Shown one piece after another: positions 22,573-51,356 of a stretch of DNA of 64,000 nt. This DNA is from Halostella litorea (GTDB lineage: Archaea; Halobacteriota; Halobacteria; Halobacteriales; Natronoarchaeaceae). The first letter of the stretch is position 1. Each line of letters begins with the position of its first letter. Made by a program: the position numbers and the translations under genes. The DNA lies in the NCBI RefSeq assembly GCF_004785955.1, contig NZ_SJER01000004.1:310001-374000 (forward strand). Reading direction: 5' to 3'. A model generated the notes under the pieces. The model searched no databases. It was not told the origin of the DNA and worked only from the letters and a program-made list of their open reading frames with translations.

Positions 22573-23733
22573 ATGGCACGTAGACGCCAGGTACTTGCGA
22601 GCAGCGCTAGTCTCATCGCCGCCGGCCTCGCCGGCTGCACCGGAAACGACTCCAACGGGGCGGATAACACGAATCAGTCGGCGAACAACGGGCCGTCGGA
22701 CTCGACGCCGTACACGGTCCAGATGGAACCCAACGACCCCTACACGTTCGAGGAGGTACCCGAGACGTACGGCGTCGGAACCAGTCCCTTCCTGGACATG
22801 GGGATGGCGCTTGGGATTCCCCCGAACGCGACTACCGGTCTCGAACGCGCCCCGCTCAAGTTCTACGACCTCCTCGATCTGGGGTTCGACGAGAGTCAGG
22901 TCACCAAACTCGCCAGCGATGCCGAATCCGGCTACGACAAGGAGAACTTCTACGCCGCCGACGCCGACGTCTGGCTTATCTCCCGCACCAACATCGGTCG
23001 CTACGTCAACTGGGACGACTCCGACTTCGAGGATGTCGAGTCCCTGACGGGACCCTTCCTCGGTACGACCCTCCGGTTCGCTCCCCAGTCCGCCGTCCAG
23101 GACGAACCCAACCCGTACACCATGTATGAGGCCTTCGAGAAGGTCGCGACGATCTTCCAGCGCCAACAGCAGTTCCAGGCGTGGCAGTCGCTCCACGACG
23201 ACCTTATGGGCACCATCGAGGAGGGACTCCCACCCGAGGATGACCGCCCTACCGTCGCCGCCATCTGGCGGGGTGTGAGCCCTGACTCGGGTCAGTTCCG
23301 CATCGCGCCGCTGCACCGCCTCGGGAACAACACCAAGTCGTACTACCGCGTCGGCATGCAGGACGCCTTCGAGGGGCAGTATCCGGACGGCCCCATCGGT
23401 TACGAGGAACTTCTCCGGGCCGACCCCGATTACATCGGTGCCGTCGGTGCGCTTACCTCTTCGACCCACGAGGCGTTCGTAACAAACGTCATCGAGCCGT
23501 TCGAAAACAACGACAACGGTCAGCAGCTCAGCGCCGTCCAGAACGGAAACGTCATCCGGAGCGGCGGCCAGTACATGGGTCCTATCGTCGACATGTTCTC
23601 CACGGAAGCCGTCGCGAAGCAGGTCTACCCCGACGAGTTCGGCGAGTGGCCCGGCGCCGTCGGCGATGTCCCGGAGAGCGAGCAGCTCTTCGACCGCCAG
23701 CGCCTCCTCGAAATCATCGACGGGGACCTGTAG
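22573..23733 (+). CDS. Iron-siderophore ABC transporter substrate-binding lipoprotein
   Basis: A 386-residue exported binding protein. It starts MARRRQVLASSASLIAAGLAGCTG, with a twin Arg and a lipobox Cys at ~21, followed by a low-complexity linker. The body has FecB/BtuF-like features: VPETYGVGTSPFLDMGMAL, an Asp/Glu-rich interdomain helix, and paired acidic residues for permease docking. It lies between the HTH regulator and a FecCD permease that starts 5 nt after its stop, so substrate capture in the iron-uptake operon is the clear role. The specific siderophore is unknown. Confidence 0.85.
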   Translation: MARRRQVLASSASLIAAGLAGCTGNDSNGADNTNQSANNGPSDSTPYTVQMEPNDPYTFEEVPETYGVGTSPFLDMGMALGIPPNATTGLERAPLKFYDLLDLGFDESQVTKLASDAESGYDKENFYAADADVWLISRTNIGRYVNWDDSDFEDVESLTGPFLGTTLRFAPQSAVQDEPNPYTMYEAFEKVATIFQRQQQFQAWQSLHDDLMGTIEEGLPPEDDRPTVAAIWRGVSPDSGQFRIAPLHRLGNNTKSYYRVGMQDAFEGQYPDGPIGYEELLRADPDYIGAVGALTSSTHEAFVTNVIEPFENNDNGQQLSAVQNGNVIRSGGQYMGPIVDMFSTEAVAKQVYPDEFGEWPGAVGDVPESEQLFDRQRLLEIIDGDL

Positions 23734-45061: not shown

Positions 45062-45136
45062 ACTCGTGTTTCCCTGGTAAATAGTCCTCAAAGAGTAACG
45101 CTTTGTATCGTGCGACGGATTCAGGCGAACTACCGA

Positions 45137-45937
45137 ATGAATCCGACTCGGTCGCAACTTCTCTCTCAGTTACGCCGCATGGACGAATACGACTTCGAGG
45201 AGTTGGTCGCTGACATCTGGGCGGAACGGGGCTGGCAGACAACCGTGACAACGGGCTCTAGCGACCGGGGGATCGACGTGATCGCCCGGAAACAGAGCCC
45301 GTTCAGGCAAAAACAGCTCATTCAAGCGAAGCGGTACGCCGCCGACAACAAGATCGGGAGTCCCGACATTCAGCAGTACAGCAGTCTCAAACGGCAGGAA
45401 GACGACGTCGATGCAGTCATCGTCATCACCACGAGTTCGTTTACGTCCCAGGCCGAGCGGACAGCGAACGACCTGAACGTGAAACTCATCGATGGCCCGG
45501 ATCTCGCGGACGTGATTGCTGACCTCGATTCCGACGGGATCGTGTCTGCGTACTTTGGCGATCAGACGAAGACACCCCGTTCGAGTAGTGCCACTACGAC
45601 AGACAAGTCTGAGGGGTCGTCCACAGACCAGAATTCACGCGCATCGCGGTCGGCCACTAGTAGCACGGACGCTACGGGAAGTAGTACATCGGCCGATCCG
45701 TCGGCGTTGCCCGACCGATTCGAGAAGGACGAACGGACGACCAAATTAGGAAAGAGCTGTCCGTACTGCAGCAGTTATAGATCGATCTGGAAGGGGAAAA
45801 CCGCGAACACGGATCCACTGCTCGTCTGTGAAGACTGCGGGACGAAGTGGGTGAAGAAGACGGGGATCATCGCCTCGACGAAGTGGAATGCACTCGGCAA
45901 AGACGAGAAAAAGACGGCCTCGGAGTGGAAGAGCTGA
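45137..45937 (+). CDS. Mrr-type restriction endonuclease-like protein
   Basis: A 266-residue protein. The N-terminal nuclease domain (about 1-130) shows the Mrr core: DEYDFEELVADIWAERGW, SSDRGIDVIARKQ, QKQLIQAKRYA (the D...QxK catalytic set), and DAVIVITTSSFTSQAERTA. A long Ser/Thr-rich linker follows, then a zinc ribbon with CPYC and CEDC and a basic end. No methyltransferase partner is adjacent, so it may be a type IV-like enzyme acting on modified DNA. Confidence 0.8.
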   Translation: MNPTRSQLLSQLRRMDEYDFEELVADIWAERGWQTTVTTGSSDRGIDVIARKQSPFRQKQLIQAKRYAADNKIGSPDIQQYSSLKRQEDDVDAVIVITTSSFTSQAERTANDLNVKLIDGPDLADVIADLDSDGIVSAYFGDQTKTPRSSSATTTDKSEGSSTDQNSRASRSATSSTDATGSSTSADPSALPDRFEKDERTTKLGKSCPYCSSYRSIWKGKTANTDPLLVCEDCGTKWVKKTGIIASTKWNALGKDEKKTASEWKS

Positions 45938-47030: not shown

Positions 47031-47105
47031 TCAAGATCCGGGGTCATGAATGACGCCATCCGACATGATGATCGTATCGGTAGTATTGTGGAACGGAGCA
47101 ACCAT

Positions 47106-47144
47106 CGTTTCGGAAGAAACGGAAACACCCCCATTCCGTTTATG
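47106..47144 (+). promoter_or_regulatory. Orc1/Cdc6 promoter with CGTTTC-GGAA-GAAACG dyad and GGAAACACC box
   Basis: A perfect 6+4+6 dyad (47106-47121) ends one base into GGAAACACC (47121-47129). Five bases further lies TCCGTTTATG, a BRE/TATA-like element. The box begins 48 nt before the ATG at 47169. The same arrangement precedes the gene at 48287. Confidence 0.6.
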
Positions 47145-47168
47145 TCGCCCGACACGGATGACGGAGGT

Positions 47169-48176
47169 ATGATACAGGATGCTCGGGTTCTCCAGCAGGA
47201 GTTCATCCCCAAGGAGATCGAGCACCGCCACGCCGAGATGAACCGGCTCTCGGACGCGCTCCGGCCGATCCTGGACGGCCAGCAACCGGACAACGTCTTT
47301 ATCTTCGGCCCCACTGGAGCGGGCAAGACCTGTGTCGCACGATACTCGCTGGAGAAACTGCGCGAAGAACTGCTGGATATCCAGTACCAGTACATCAACT
47401 GCTGGCAGGACTACAACCGCTTTCGCGTACTCTATCGGATGCTCGAAGGCATCGACAGCACGCTCGACATTCACCGGCAGAGCACGCCACGGGACGAACT
47501 GTTCGAGCGCCTCCGGGAGTACGACGACATGCCGTACGTGGTCATTCTCGACGAGGTCGACCAACTCGAAGATATGGACGTCCTCTACGACCTCTACACG
47601 CTCCGGAACATCACGATGATCATGATCGCAAACGAGGAACTGGAGCTGTTCGCCGGCATGGACCAGCGGGTGAACAGCCGCCTCCAGAGCAGCCACCGGC
47701 TCCAGTTCGACGCCTACTCGAACGACGAACTGGTCGGGATCCTCAGCGACCGCGTGGAGTGGGGGTTCACGCACGACGCCATCAGCACGCGGCAGCTCGA
47801 AACGATCGCCGACGCCGCGGCAGGCGACGCCCGTGTTGCCATCGGAATTCTGCGGTCGGCGGCCCGGCAGGCCGAACAGGACGGTGCTGACTCCATCGCC
47901 GATACCACTATCACGCAAGCTATCCCGGCAGCACGGTCGGAACTCCACCAGCAGAACATCGAGAAGCTCAACGAGCATCAACAGACCGTCTACGACATCG
48001 TCGCGGACGCCGAAGTCATCACGCCGGGGGAGTTGTACGACCGCTACGAGGGGGCGGTTTCGGATCCGAAAACGAAGCGGACCGTCCGAAACTATCTGCA
48101 GAAGATGGTTCACTACGACCTCATTGAGTCTGAGGGCGAAAAGCGCGGACGGGAGTACAGGCTCAACACGCAGTGA
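47169..48176 (+). CDS. Orc1/Cdc6-family AAA+ ATPase
   Basis: A 335-residue origin-recognition or loader ATPase. Walker A is GPTGAGKT (G47-T54), Walker B VVILDEVDQLED, sensor 1 MIMIANEELEL, arginine finger region VNSRLQSSH, and a C-terminal winged helix ending KRGREYRLNTQ. The start MIQDARVLQQEFIP at 47169 is preferred because the shared promoter box then has the same spacing as the next operon. In-frame ATGs at 47142 and 47046 exist. It may bind a local origin or the promoters beside it. No origin boxes were confirmed. Confidence 0.85.
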   Translation: MIQDARVLQQEFIPKEIEHRHAEMNRLSDALRPILDGQQPDNVFIFGPTGAGKTCVARYSLEKLREELLDIQYQYINCWQDYNRFRVLYRMLEGIDSTLDIHRQSTPRDELFERLREYDDMPYVVILDEVDQLEDMDVLYDLYTLRNITMIMIANEELELFAGMDQRVNSRLQSSHRLQFDAYSNDELVGILSDRVEWGFTHDAISTRQLETIADAAAGDARVAIGILRSAARQAEQDGADSIADTTITQAIPAARSELHQQNIEKLNEHQQTVYDIVADAEVITPGELYDRYEGAVSDPKTKRTVRNYLQKMVHYDLIESEGEKRGREYRLNTQ

Positions 48177-48228
48177 GCTATCGAGCAGGACGCGCTCACG
48201 GCCACATGACGGTGTGAGTCCTCGGAAA

Positions 48229-48262
48229 CGGAAGTTCCGGAAACACCACACCTCCGCTTTTG
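48229..48262 (+). promoter_or_regulatory. RecA-like operon promoter with CGGAA-G-TTCCG dyad and GGAAACACC box
   Basis: A perfect dyad (48229-48239) ends at GGAAACACC (48239-48247), followed after five bases by TCCGCTTTTG. The box begins 48 nt before the ATG at 48287, exactly as in the Orc1/Cdc6 promoter. This predicts common regulation. Confidence 0.6.
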
Positions 48263-48286
48263 CACGGTGTCGCGTTTGGTTCCCGT

Positions 48287-48991
48287 ATGGGATTTCGACA
48301 ACCAGCCAACCGTTCCACGGACGTCCAGCTCCCCGACCAGGTACCGGATCTCAAGCCAGGCGTGACGCTTCTCGATGGCCCCGCGGACCGGTCGGTCGCA
48401 CTCCACCAGCTCGTCCTGACTGACTTCGCGGACGAATCCGGGAACGCATACTGGATCGATGCCCGAAACAACGCCACGACGTACGCGTTCTACGAACTCG
48501 CGGGTGACCGAACCGACCTGTCCGGTCTCCGGATCGCTCGTGCGTTCACCGCGTATCAGCACCACTCGCTGGTCCGGCGGACCGCTCGCGTCGTCACGCC
48601 GAACACGGCAGCCGTCGCAGTGCCCTGCCTCCCGTCGCTGTATCGCGACGACGATGTGCCCGACCACGAAGCGGCGGATCTACTCGAATCGGCGCTCGCG
48701 ATCCTGGCAGAACTCGCCGAGACGCTCGACATCCCCGTCGTCATCACTGCCAATACTGGGAGCGATCACGGCGAACTCGTCGCCGAGTACGTCGACCACG
48801 AGATCAACTGCCGCAAGACGGGACTCGGGCTCCAGTACTCCAGCGAGGACTTCACGACGGACGTCTACTGGCACGACGGCTTCTGGCAGACGACGATCCC
48901 CTACTGGGTCGACCTGTTCGGTGCCGTCTCGGAGACGGACACGGTTCGGCCGCGCCCCGAGACGCCGATTACGGAACTGGAGGTGGTCTGA
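48287..48991 (+). CDS. Degenerate RecA/RadA-like protein of the PolB2 operon
   Basis: A 234-residue protein with the alternating strand-helix pattern of a RecA core. The Walker A position reads DGPADRSVALHQL (G31), without the lysine-serine/threonine, so ATP binding is probably lost. Walker-B-like strands AAVAVPCLPSLYR and IPVVITANTG, and a C-terminal DLFGAVSETDT follow. Its stop overlaps the next ATG. Context (a small protein and a PolB2-like polymerase) suggests an ImuA-like accessory factor; this is inference. Confidence 0.6.
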   Translation: MGFRQPANRSTDVQLPDQVPDLKPGVTLLDGPADRSVALHQLVLTDFADESGNAYWIDARNNATTYAFYELAGDRTDLSGLRIARAFTAYQHHSLVRRTARVVTPNTAAVAVPCLPSLYRDDDVPDHEAADLLESALAILAELAETLDIPVVITANTGSDHGELVAEYVDHEINCRKTGLGLQYSSEDFTTDVYWHDGFWQTTIPYWVDLFGAVSETDTVRPRPETPITELEVV

Positions 48992-49245
48992 TGGGGCGCA
49001 CGAACCCCACCTTCCGCGATTTCCTGCAGACGTTTCGATCGCAGTGGCAACCGTTCCGCCGAGGGTTGCGACGACAGGACAAACCACACTTCGACCGCCT
49101 GTTCGAGCACGCCGAGTCCCACGCGGACGCGGCAGGCTACATGAACGCGACCGACCCGGAGGTCGCGATCATCCTGTCGATGCTCCTCGCACAGGAACGT
49201 GAGATCCGGGAACTCCGAACGCAACTCGACGAGGCGCAGCGATGA
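48991..49245 (+). CDS. 84-residue operon partner of PolB2
   Basis: A small mostly helical protein: MGRTNPTFRDFLQTFRSQWQ, a basic FRRGLRRQDKPHFDRLFEHA, and a leucine-rich C-terminal coiled-coil-like REIRELRTQLDEAQR. It overlaps the RecA-like stop by one base and the polymerase start by 4 nt. I recall conserved small proteins at this place in haloarchaeal PolB2 operons, but not their function. It may bridge or recruit the polymerase. Confidence 0.65.
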   Translation: MGRTNPTFRDFLQTFRSQWQPFRRGLRRQDKPHFDRLFEHAESHADAAGYMNATDPEVAIILSMLLAQEREIRELRTQLDEAQR

Positions 49246-51356
49246 CGTTCAAAGTCGAGTTTCGGAACGGGACGTGTGTCGAGTGGGATCGGACTGCTGA
49301 CGGTGTCAGCCGCACTGAGAACGAACGATACACGCCATCACTGTACATCGACGGTCCGGAGACGCCGCTAGCGGACCTTCGGACTGCATTGGAGCGTGAT
49401 CCGAAGGTCACGGCCACCGCTATCGAACGCTGGTACACGAGCCTGCAAGACACCGCAAAAACGGACGTCCTTCGCGTCGATGTCGACCACGTCGCTGACG
49501 TCCGATCCGTGGCTACCGAGGTGCGAGGGGTTCACGAACGGGATAGCTACGCTCCGGGGACGTTCCGGCTCTACAACGTCGACCTGTCGCCACAGTTCCG
49601 ATACTGCGTAGAGACTGGCACGGACCCGACGCCGGACCATGCGCTGTCGACCTTGTCGCTGCGGATCGGCGACCAGGCACTCGCCACAAAGGACGTGTCG
49701 TCGCTGACGGTCGACGGTGACGAGATCACAGGCTCACCGGCGGCCGTGCTTCAAGCAGTCTACAACCGTGTCCGGACGACCGACCCCGATGTCCTCATCG
49801 TCTCTCACGGGGACCTCGTGCCGGTTCTCTATGAGCAGGCCGACGAAGTCGGACTCTCGGAGTTTCAACTGGGCCGTGAGACCGGGTGGGACAAACTCGC
49901 TGGCGAGAGTACCTACGTGAGCTACGGCCAGGTGGGTCACTCGCCCGCTCGCTACGACGTGCCCGGCCGTGTCCTGCTCAATACCTCGAACAGTTTCCTC
50001 TGGGCGGAAACCAGCCTCAACGGTCTCGTCGACCTCGTCAGCCGGTCGTGGAAACCCCTGCAGGAGCTGGGGTGGGCGAGCATCGGAACAGTGCTGACGG
50101 CGATCCAGATCCGGGAAGCGCTCGAACGGGACGTCCTGATCCCGTGGGACAAGTGGGAACCGGAGGAGTTCAAAGATGTCCGGACGCTCCACGCGGCCGA
50201 CCGCGGTGGATTCACGTTCGCTCCGCAGGTGGGGCTGCACGAGAACGTGTACGAAGTGGACTTCTCGTCGCTGTATCCCCGGATCATCTGCGAGTGGAAC
50301 ATCAGCCCCGATACGATCCGCTGCGACTGTCACAGTGACCGTACCGATATCCCGGAACTCGGCTATAACGTCTGTGACGACGACGGCTTCCTCCCGGCGG
50401 TGTTGCAACCGCTGTTGGACGACAGAGCTGCGATCAAACAGCAACTCCGCGAAACGGACGACCCGGAACGGGAAGCGGAACTCAACTCCCGTTCGGCGGC
50501 GATCAAGTGGATCCTCGTCTCCTGTTTCGGCTATCAGGGCTACCGCAATGCGAAGTTCGGCCGGATCGAATGCCACGAAGCCATCAACGCCGTCGCTCGC
50601 GATATCCTGCTTCGATCGAAAGAACGGCTGGAAGCCAACGGCTGGGAGATCGTCCACGGTATCGTCGACAGCCTCTGGGTGACGCCGATGGACAACACGG
50701 AGACGACACCGCTCTCGTCGGTCACCGATGCGATCTCCGACGATATCGGGATCACTCTCGAACGTGAGAGCAGGTACGACTGGGTGTGTTTCGTCCCGAA
50801 GCGGACGTCGAATGCCGGCGCTCTCACGAAGTATTTCGGGAAAGTAGCCGACACAGACGAGTACAAACTCCGGGGGATCGAAGCCAGACAGCGAAGTACC
50901 CCACCGTACATCGAAGCAGTCCAACGTGACCTGATTCGGATCGTCGAGACCGAGCGAAATCCAGAAGCGGTCTGCGATCGATTGCAGCGGTCGCTAACTG
51001 AACTTCGAGCCGGAGATGTTCCACCCGAGGAACTCGTCATCACGAAGCGGGCGTCCAAAGCACCCGAAGCGTACACGCAGCGGACCCAGACGGTTGCCGC
51101 GCTCGAACGTGCTCGGATGAAGGGACTCGATCCACAGCCCGGTGAGTCCCTCCAGTACGTGGTCGTAAACGACGACACTCGATCGCGGGACCGCGTCAGA
51201 TTACAGTTCGAGGATATTTCGGAGTACGATACGGGATTCTACAGGGGCCAACTCGTCCGTGCGGCGGAAAGTATTGTCTCCCCGTTTGGGTGGGATGCGG
51301 AGCGGATCGAAACGTACCTGAACGATATCGACGACGTGAGCCTCGCCGCGTTTTAG
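49242..51356 (+). CDS. Family-B DNA polymerase, PolB2-like, without clear exonuclease motifs
   Basis: A 704-residue polymerase. Motif A is VDFSSLYPRII (D340), motif B KWILVSCFGYQGYRN (K422), motif C HGIVDSLWV, where the first Asp of DTDS is replaced but the catalytic second Asp (D476) stays. The N-terminal half has no convincing ExoI/II/III acidic set. It is shorter than replicative PolB3. PolB2 enzymes of crenarchaea are damage-tolerance polymerases; haloarchaeal ones are less known. The start overlaps the previous gene by 4 nt. Confidence 0.82.
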   Translation: MTFKVEFRNGTCVEWDRTADGVSRTENERYTPSLYIDGPETPLADLRTALERDPKVTATAIERWYTSLQDTAKTDVLRVDVDHVADVRSVATEVRGVHERDSYAPGTFRLYNVDLSPQFRYCVETGTDPTPDHALSTLSLRIGDQALATKDVSSLTVDGDEITGSPAAVLQAVYNRVRTTDPDVLIVSHGDLVPVLYEQADEVGLSEFQLGRETGWDKLAGESTYVSYGQVGHSPARYDVPGRVLLNTSNSFLWAETSLNGLVDLVSRSWKPLQELGWASIGTVLTAIQIREALERDVLIPWDKWEPEEFKDVRTLHAADRGGFTFAPQVGLHENVYEVDFSSLYPRIICEWNISPDTIRCDCHSDRTDIPELGYNVCDDDGFLPAVLQPLLDDRAAIKQQLRETDDPEREAELNSRSAAIKWILVSCFGYQGYRNAKFGRIECHEAINAVARDILLRSKERLEANGWEIVHGIVDSLWVTPMDNTETTPLSSVTDAISDDIGITLERESRYDWVCFVPKRTSNAGALTKYFGKVADTDEYKLRGIEARQRSTPPYIEAVQRDLIRIVETERNPEAVCDRLQRSLTELRAGDVPPEELVITKRASKAPEAYTQRTQTVAALERARMKGLDPQPGESLQYVVVNDDTRSRDRVRLQFEDISEYDTGFYRGQLVRAAESIVSPFGWDAERIETYLNDIDDVSLAAF

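Follow-up and report, generated by a model that had tools for sequence, protein, structure and literature searches.

What task an orc1/cdc6 gene performs directly upstream of the genes for a DNA polymerase complex is the question raised by a 64 kb stretch of the Halostella litorea genome (NZ_SJER01000004.1), referred to here as the window, whose coordinates are used throughout. The listing of open reading frames (ORFs) places orc1/cdc6 upstream of three overlapping genes on the + strand (48287-51356), which encode iRadA, PPB2 and PolB2, the three components of the PolB2 mutasome, and a gap of 110 nt separates the orc stop codon (48176) from the iRadA start codon (48287). The iRadA and PPB2 genes have one base in common (TGATG), and the PPB2 and PolB2 genes overlap by the four bases ATGA. 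An earlier sequence-only reading of this DNA had described the same layout, an Orc1/Cdc6 gene followed by three genes overlapping head to tail. The complex itself is known; the wiring, in which the orc promoter and the iRadA promoter carry one common element, designated E1, was found in none of the papers searched. Judging from sequence and from the analogy with Sulfolobus Orc1-2, the Orc is probably a self-regulated, non-initiator, Orc1-2-like protein that controls the mutasome through E1 with induction by damage.

E1 is composed of two YCGGAA repeats 9 bp apart, directly upstream of the TATA box. Both copies in the window have the form CGGAA-N4-CGGAAAC-ACC, the distance from the first base of the second CGGAA to the beginning of a TATA-like box being 19 nt, and both score far above all other sites in the 64 kb. 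In a profile search of the whole 3.7 Mb genome they are the only strong sites (E-values of 1.5e-6 for the orc site and 1.9e-5 for the operon site), both having been part of the profile training set and 150 of the 1452 first-look genome candidates having been scored. Two weak sites are found elsewhere: the first lies at a further copy of iRadA, on contig C6, and the other, on contig C4, has no identified gene. The E1 profile (R1) was built from 46 of the 59 sites found, all with the 9-bp spacing; variants with 8 bp exist. An initial pattern, YCGGAANNNYCGGAA, proved too stringent, neither window site matching it, and ACTTTC-type repeats in the two window promoters were rejected on inspection. 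A control with the pattern written backwards gave near-equal counts and was uninformative because the repeat reads almost alike in that direction. With only two strong sites genome-wide and no G-string origin recognition box (ORB) nearby, a general role of E1 in promoters or origins was rejected.

The listed Orc ORF opens at the ATG at 47046, and the match to the Orc family begins only at residue 43 of that frame. Because of this, and because relatives of the Orc open with the motif MI.DAR, the start was set at the ATG at 47169. TTTATG then lies about 30 nt before the start codon, and the spacing between TATA box and start is similar for iRadA. Such spacing is that of leaderless haloarchaeal transcripts. 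The position 47106, which the sequence-only reading had taken as the beginning of the locus, marks the promoter element and not the first codon of the Orc. The same reading had put the Orc under one promoter with the operon; the element is indeed common to both, but a single promoter serving orc and the operon was rejected, there being two separate promoters that carry one element. The features are collected in Table 1. A gene for an Mrr-like restriction endonuclease, recognized by eye, lies about 1 kb upstream of the Orc (45110-45937).

Table 1. Genes and promoter elements of the orc-mutasome locus, in window coordinates.
Feature	Position	Strand	Remarks
E1 of orc promoter	47107..47140	+	CGGAA at 47111 and 47120; TATA-like TTTATG at 47139-47144
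Orc1/Cdc6-family protein	47169..48176	+	335 aa; TIGR02928 213.7 bits; AlphaFold; predicted regulator
E1 of mutasome operon promoter	48225..48258	+	CGGAA at 48229 and 48238; TATA-like CTTTTG from 48257
iRadA, RadA/Rad51 fold without P-loop	48287..48991	+	profile matches, alignment, AlphaFold
PPB2 (arCOG07300 type)	48991..49245	+	84 aa; N-terminal MGRTNPTFRD
PolB2 family B DNA polymerase	49242..51356	+	704 aa; NF004418 984.5 bits

The pairing of the element with the two promoters recurs in other genomes. PolB2 matches are found in 190 of 293 genomes, from which 100 PolB2 loci were sampled, 40 in a first set and then 60 out of 85 regions. Allowing at most one mismatch, CGGAANNNNCGGAA occurs in 36 of 101 operon and 28 of 52 orc upstream regions (230 nt each) and in 34 of 1728 random windows. 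A motif trained on 34 orc promoters only places 57 of 80 operon promoters above the 99% null level, with 0.8 expected; this level was set from 3297 windows with real sites excluded, and shuffled operon promoters pass it in 1.4% of cases. Half of the operon loci that had no orc in training (23/46) pass the orc-trained motif. Elements of the orc and operon promoters of one locus are more alike than shuffled pairs (12.58 versus 11.77 of 17 positions, p 0.0018), in a comparison of 26 pairs that ignores kinship and whose null windows overlapped real sites. Among 40 genomes of one family, E1 is matched at E<1e-4 in 11 and at E<=1 in 36, the latter within chance, and the best matches are located at orc and iRadA promoters.

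The Orc of the window contains a Walker A motif (GPTGAGKT), a Walker B motif (DEVD) and a C-terminal winged helix. The TIGR02928 and Cdc6_lid profiles score above their cut-offs and Cdc6_C scores below. The AlphaFold model (pLDDT 88.6) matches the Protein Data Bank entries 2qby_A and 2v1u_A at a TM score of 0.76. Four winged-helix residues, K301, R304, R307 and K312, are invariant in 18 aligned proteins, and the intact Walker motifs and invariant Lys and Arg residues would be compatible with ATP-dependent binding of E1.

E1 accompanies this type of Orc even away from the mutasome. Among 20 further Orc loci outside the training set, 17 have no detected mutasome gene, one has PolB2 upstream (L252) and two have iRadA/PPB2 (L255, L256); E1 is located at -58 to -70 before 19 of the 20 Orc genes, and for 16 of these 19 the DNA retrieved around the Orc showed no mutasome gene. 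A set of 37 genomes was picked by hand; in it, E1 (E<=0.05) is present in 22 of 25 with the Orc (17/20 without the five genomes that supplied training sites) and in 3 of 12 without it. Across the 293 genomes, the Orc and PolB2 occur together in 152, PolB2 alone in 28, the Orc alone in 46 and neither in 67 (Fisher p 1.5e-14, kinship ignored); the cut-offs were E<=1e-60 for the Orc and E<1e-60 for PolB2, so that ten genomes with weak PolB2 matches (1e-60 to 1e-20) were counted as negative. Another 19 stretches surrounding such E1 matches were hand-picked, mostly for not being known orc or PolB2 loci. Nine of these have E1 before a mutasome or orc gene: E1 is found at the mutasome operon with no orc in the stretch (L297, L299), at iRadA beside an orc fragment (L298) or an orc gene (L302), before a PPB2-like gene (L306) and before orc (L301, L307, L310, L311); one stretch has no site at threshold.

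Several observations weigh against the proposed control of the mutasome by the Orc through E1. Fourteen of the 80 operon promoters have neither E1 nor the alternative element E2 (see below) at threshold, and the null windows of this comparison and of the one-mismatch search were random stretches of the loci rather than other promoters. One of the 20 further Orc genes (L254) lacks E1, and the 3 of 12 Orc-less genomes mentioned above possess it. The 46 genomes with the Orc and no PolB2, in which the genes following the Orc vary, indicate that the Orc may have other duties. In 9 of the 19 further stretches, E1-like sites occur only before other or unrecognized genes, and sites of this kind also occur in L205-L209, of which L205-L207 belong to genome G299. 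No mutasome or orc gene was found in the stretches around the E1-like sites of L205, L206, L293-L296, L300, L303-L305 and L308, and in L207 and L209 such sites precede a short ORF that looks zinc-finger-like by eye; in L209 the next gene resembles TnpB, again by eye. A search of the open-access literature returned no binding, expression or damage data for the window Orc or for E1. Since some E1 sites precede other genes, the E1 regulon, as judged from sequence, may have further members and would center on orc and the mutasome. Two individual sites are recorded here: in L205, two successive E1-like sites are located upstream of a subtilase-like gene, and in L251 (2599-3794), E1 directly follows the Orc and precedes a gene for what looks like a Cas4/RecB-type nuclease (both by eye).

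The regulation proposed here builds on the computed operon anatomy and folds, the shared E1 at a near-fixed distance from TATA box and start, its tracking of the Orc clade and its replacement by E2. The winged helix of the Orc would bind E1 upstream of the B recognition element (BRE) and TATA box at two promoters, that of orc and that of the iRadA-PPB2-PolB2 operon. Upon a replication block, ATP-bound Orc on E1 would recruit or stabilize TBP/TFB, raising the levels of the Orc itself and of the mutasome, and ATP hydrolysis would end the response. In the complex, which is described in PMC11791011, a PPB2 trimer and iRadA would hold PolB2 at damaged primer ends for extension past lesions; in the loci compared here the three genes keep their adjacent order. 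The binding of E1 by the Orc, activation over repression, the damage signal and catalysis by PolB2 are all inferred.

A second element, E2, connects these promoters to an earlier study of ultraviolet (UV) irradiation. E2 is the 11-bp UV-B motif of Halobacterium, TTTCACTTTCA, reported before radA1, top6B and other genes in the passages available of Boubriak 2008 (PMC2556686), where it stood without a known regulator as of that year. Nine of the 80 operon promoters carry a TTTCACTTTCAC-type element in place of E1, and none carries both elements. In the genomes surveyed, E2 is found ahead of radA and top6B, ahead of a putative gene for an RPA-like protein, recognized by eye, and in some cases ahead of the mutasome; in the genome of the window it is found before radA, away from PolB2. 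Four TTTCACTTTCAC-type sites are present in that genome (G000:C2:634297, C1:797551, C2:1188744 and C5:89187; L051-L054). Judged by eye, the genes behind them are, in this order, radA, a TnpB-like gene of an insertion sequence (IS), one of restriction type and a small ORF, a picture close to that in Halobacterium.

E2 is also seen in promoters of a sister clade of Orcs. Two loci (L014, L015) encode Orcs 35-37% identical to the window Orc, with E2 in the orc promoter at 2 and 3 mismatches; E2 was not found at the second Orc of L015. A scan of 26 sister-clade loci located E2 or a half site at -54 to -66 in 12 and neither in 14, and the E2-bearing Orcs comprise 11 of 13 from Haloarculaceae and 1 of 13 from others (Halorussus), with families taken from record and genus names and from the tree. 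Mapped onto a tree built from 104 Orcs, E2 as a label requires 3 changes, compared with 11.6 in shuffles. All 12 E2 Orcs fall into one branch of 27 rows, together with 13 that have no element and 2 with E1 on long branches; the other 77 rows comprise 70 with E1, 7 with none and 0 with E2, up to 34 of the E1 promoters having also trained the E1 motif. Promoter element and Orc clade therefore go together, and DNA-binding proteins that regulate themselves would be expected to show such a difference between the sister clade's own promoter and that of the window Orc. In L219 and L221, the intergenic DNA downstream of a sister-clade Orc contains arrays of CGGAA/TTCCG repeats with a spacing of about 10 bp; their sequence is consistent with a preference of these Orcs for a CGGAA core.

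As a general rule, control of the TTTCACTTTCA regulon by the sister-clade Orc is not supported: 14 of 26 loci lack E2, and several E2 operons are in genomes in which a search found no such Orc. In G022, G030 and G190, the operon has E2 with two mismatches at most and neither Orc type was found, G030 being 78% complete. G190 (L353) and G291 (L351), but not G022, have an Orc of another type, canonical-looking and chromosomal, with an E2-like site about 62 nt upstream. A wider scheme, in which the haloarchaeal damage response is run by self-regulating Orcs, the E1 clade serving the mutasome and the sister clade or another Orc reading TTTCACTTTCA in the UV regulon of radA1 and top6B, is tentative and on balance doubtful. 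If true, the match between ACTTTC and the Sulfolobus sequence ANTTTC would mean that archaea possess, in the control of damage responses by Orcs, an ancient equivalent of LexA.

Alternatively, some other transcription factor could read E1, with the Orc as one more target of the regulon, perhaps acting at stalled forks together with the mutasome. Binding of E1 by the Orc is itself inferred from sequence, the UV motif of haloarchaea is in the passages of PMC2556686 likewise without a known regulator, no close relative of the Orc was found in G022, G030 and G190 with their E2 operons, and E1 occurs in the 3 of 12 Orc-less genomes. The tracking of the Orc clade by E1 even where no mutasome gene is nearby argues against this explanation, as does the different element in the promoters of 12 of the 26 sister-clade members, and it is regarded as rather unlikely.

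The proteins of the operon identify the window trio as an ordinary member of the known iRadA-PPB2-PolB2 family. The first is RadA-like by profile and by structure, in agreement with the sequence-only reading, which had proposed a RecA-fold protein without the Walker A lysine. Its profile matches are weak (PF08423, E 0.0064; TIGR02237, E 8.4e-6; both under the curated cut-offs), and among 48 family members including that of the window, Rad51 is matched in 28 and RadB in 30. The AlphaFold model (pLDDT 86.2) has its best matches in the ATPase domains of DMC1, RAD51 and RadA (E 3.4e-11). The Walker A lysine is absent from the window protein, and a P-loop is present in 2 of the 48 members and absent from the displayed rows. 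The small protein, which had been proposed as a mutasome partner, is PPB2: it has the MGRT N terminus, a motif named in the available passages of PMC11791011. Of 94 related loci, 76 have [MV]GR[TM] close to the start and 18, by the same test, do not, and MGR is invariant in 34 aligned PPB2 sequences (that of the window and 33 selected from 64).

Motif C of the window PolB2 reads IVD, compared with DTD in PolB3 of the same genome, and I-V-D is present in 98 of 99 aligned PolB2 proteins. The Exo I (FDIE) and Exo II (NFEDFD) motifs of that PolB3 are not preserved in PolB2, in a region where the alignment is poor and was judged partly by eye. The exonuclease thus looks degenerate from its sequence and a complete catalytic triad was not seen in the alignment; the lack of exonuclease motifs suggested by the sequence-only reading stands to that extent. 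The opposite is stated for Halobacterium in PMC1906834, a passage of which credits PolB2 with conserved polymerase and exonuclease motifs (data not shown there). The WDKW sequence of the window protein is not conserved, the commonest form in relatives being WNSW, and the D(K/R) motif that passages of PMC11791011 describe before the palm may lie elsewhere.

These changes raise the possibility that PolB2 is catalytically dead and that the complex is a structural or signaling factor at stalled forks. The first catalytic Asp of motif C is an Ile in the window protein, and the family was called inactivated in the relevant passages of PMC4104785. Dpo2 of S. islandicus, however, has an Ile at the same place in motif C (passages of PMC11791011) and is a functional polymerase able to extend mismatched ends (PMC8764526), which makes loss of activity decidedly unlikely.

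The arrangement of the window is repeated in named cassettes. On plasmid 1 of Halalkalicoccus jeotgali and in Haloprofundus salinisoli, orc, iRadA, PPB2 and PolB2 are found in the order of the window with E1 at orc and iRadA. The cassette on pNG600 of Haloarcula marismortui is more spread, with E1 scores of 26.9 at orc, 8.5 at iRadA and 8.2 at PolB2 (null 99% level, 4.4). In these cassettes iRadA and PPB2 are annotated only as hypothetical proteins. The E1 Orc of pNG600 (L339, 7001-8734) adjoins a gene for an SOS response-associated peptidase (SRAP), a damage-linked gene named in passages of PMC11791011. Contig C6 of the window genome (48137-54198; L009, L201) contains a second, plasmid-type PolB2 mutasome, whose orc and iRadA promoters have weaker E1 variants. 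An Orc of replicative type is encoded just downstream on the opposite strand.

In Halobacterium salinarum NRC-1, orc1 on pNRC200 encodes a protein with 52% identity over the match and has E1 at -67, and polB2 on the same plasmid has a weaker E1 variant at -66. An in-frame stop codon, however, interrupts orc1 (L338, 4001-4990) within the region of the winged helix. The neighbors of orc1 are a drmE-family gene with a transposase on one side and parA on the other. Near polB2 (L241), the search found an IS200/IS605 transposase gene and a stretch resembling PPB2 but no iRadA. The cassette thus looks decayed from its sequence, and for this reason the dispensability of Halobacterium orc1 and polB2, reported in passages of PMC1906834, tells little about the intact system. 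NRC-1 was rejected as a clean test bed, with a broken orc1 and no iRadA found at polB2.

A conventional role in replication, with the Orc as an initiator, E1 as an ORB and the locus as a replicon origin, is very unlikely. The Orc family score and the presence of DNA-bound archaeal Orc1 structures among the best structural matches would fit such a role; according to passages of PMC3528665, 102 of 154 haloarchaeal orc genes have ORB-like elements beside them and the type of ORB corresponds to the family of the Orc, and one published ORB contains GCGGAAAC. E1, however, is a direct repeat that faces the gene at a near-fixed distance from TATA box and start codon, and it is also found before mutasome operons in stretches that lack an orc. 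No G-string ORB is located near E1, the sole ORB-like match in the 64 kb being at 22642. Inverted G-string ORBs around an AT-rich stretch were not found in the window, where the two intergenic regions have AT contents of 0.48 and 0.40 compared with 0.37 for the whole. The loss of orc1 in Halobacterium was not counted against this explanation because that gene is broken. That PolB2 is instead the replicative polymerase of a mobile element is hardly credible: many copies are found on plasmids, some beside a plasmid orc, but motif C is altered, the exonuclease looks degenerate, pNRC200 polB2 is dispensable (passages of PMC1906834) and deletion of H. volcanii polB2 has been reported as possible (unpublished, PMC7776575).

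In the literature surveyed, control of the euryarchaeal mutasome has so far rested on gene neighborhood and on the analogy with Sulfolobus. The open-access literature, outside which most subscription papers fall, gave no report of E1 or of a haloarchaeal Orc damage regulator, and no expression of haloarchaeal polB2 or orc after damage was recognized in it, mostly without full text. A candidate regulator-operator pair in dozens of genomes would make an SOS-like response outside Sulfolobus testable; it suggests a job for some haloarchaeal orc genes that are unlinked to origins, and it offers candidate regulators for the UV motif of 2008.

The closest known system is the PolB2 mutasome of PMC4104785 and PMC11791011. 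Passages of these papers describe a family that spans archaea and bacteria and contain the trio, the lost polymerase Asp and the enrichment of orc1/cdc6 genes in PolB2 mutasome neighborhoods. The window shares with it the three proteins, the gene order, the MGRT arm of PPB2, the lost iRadA P-loop, the lost first Asp of DxD and an orc1/cdc6 gene in the neighborhood. The sequence-only reading was right in proposing a damage-tolerance mutasome with a RecA-fold partner, but the system is neither new nor of independent haloarchaeal origin, the family being already known. Those sources give neighborhood enrichment, to which the window adds a defined element common to orc and operon; the word promoter is absent from the main text of PMC11791011, and a promoter element is not described in the passages of PMC4104785 on PolB2.

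Bacterial ImuA-ImuB-DnaE2 is a damage operon with a RecA-fold partner and an error-prone polymerase. The window operon resembles it in both components, but the bacterial polymerase belongs to a different family from PolB2, homology is not claimed, and the proposed convergence of the two is an analogy.

Sulfolobus Orc1-2, as described in passages of PMC9738581, binds ANTTTC in its own promoter, more strongly with ATP, and the same sequence is found on several promoters of the damage response. Like the Orc1-2/DDRE system, the window would combine a non-initiator Orc1/Cdc6 protein with an element that is common to the promoter of its gene and to promoters of damage genes. E1 differs in being a tandem of YCGGAA rather than ANTTTC, and strong E1 sites seem to be few per genome; the window Orc is not filed as an Orc1-2 orthologue because its element is the YCGGAA tandem. 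The UV-B motif TTTCACTTTCA differs in sequence from the window E1. It resembles E1 in its placement upstream of the TATA box and replaces it in the nine operons, and its two ACTTTC hexamers fit the ANTTTC of Sulfolobus given in the passages of PMC9738581.

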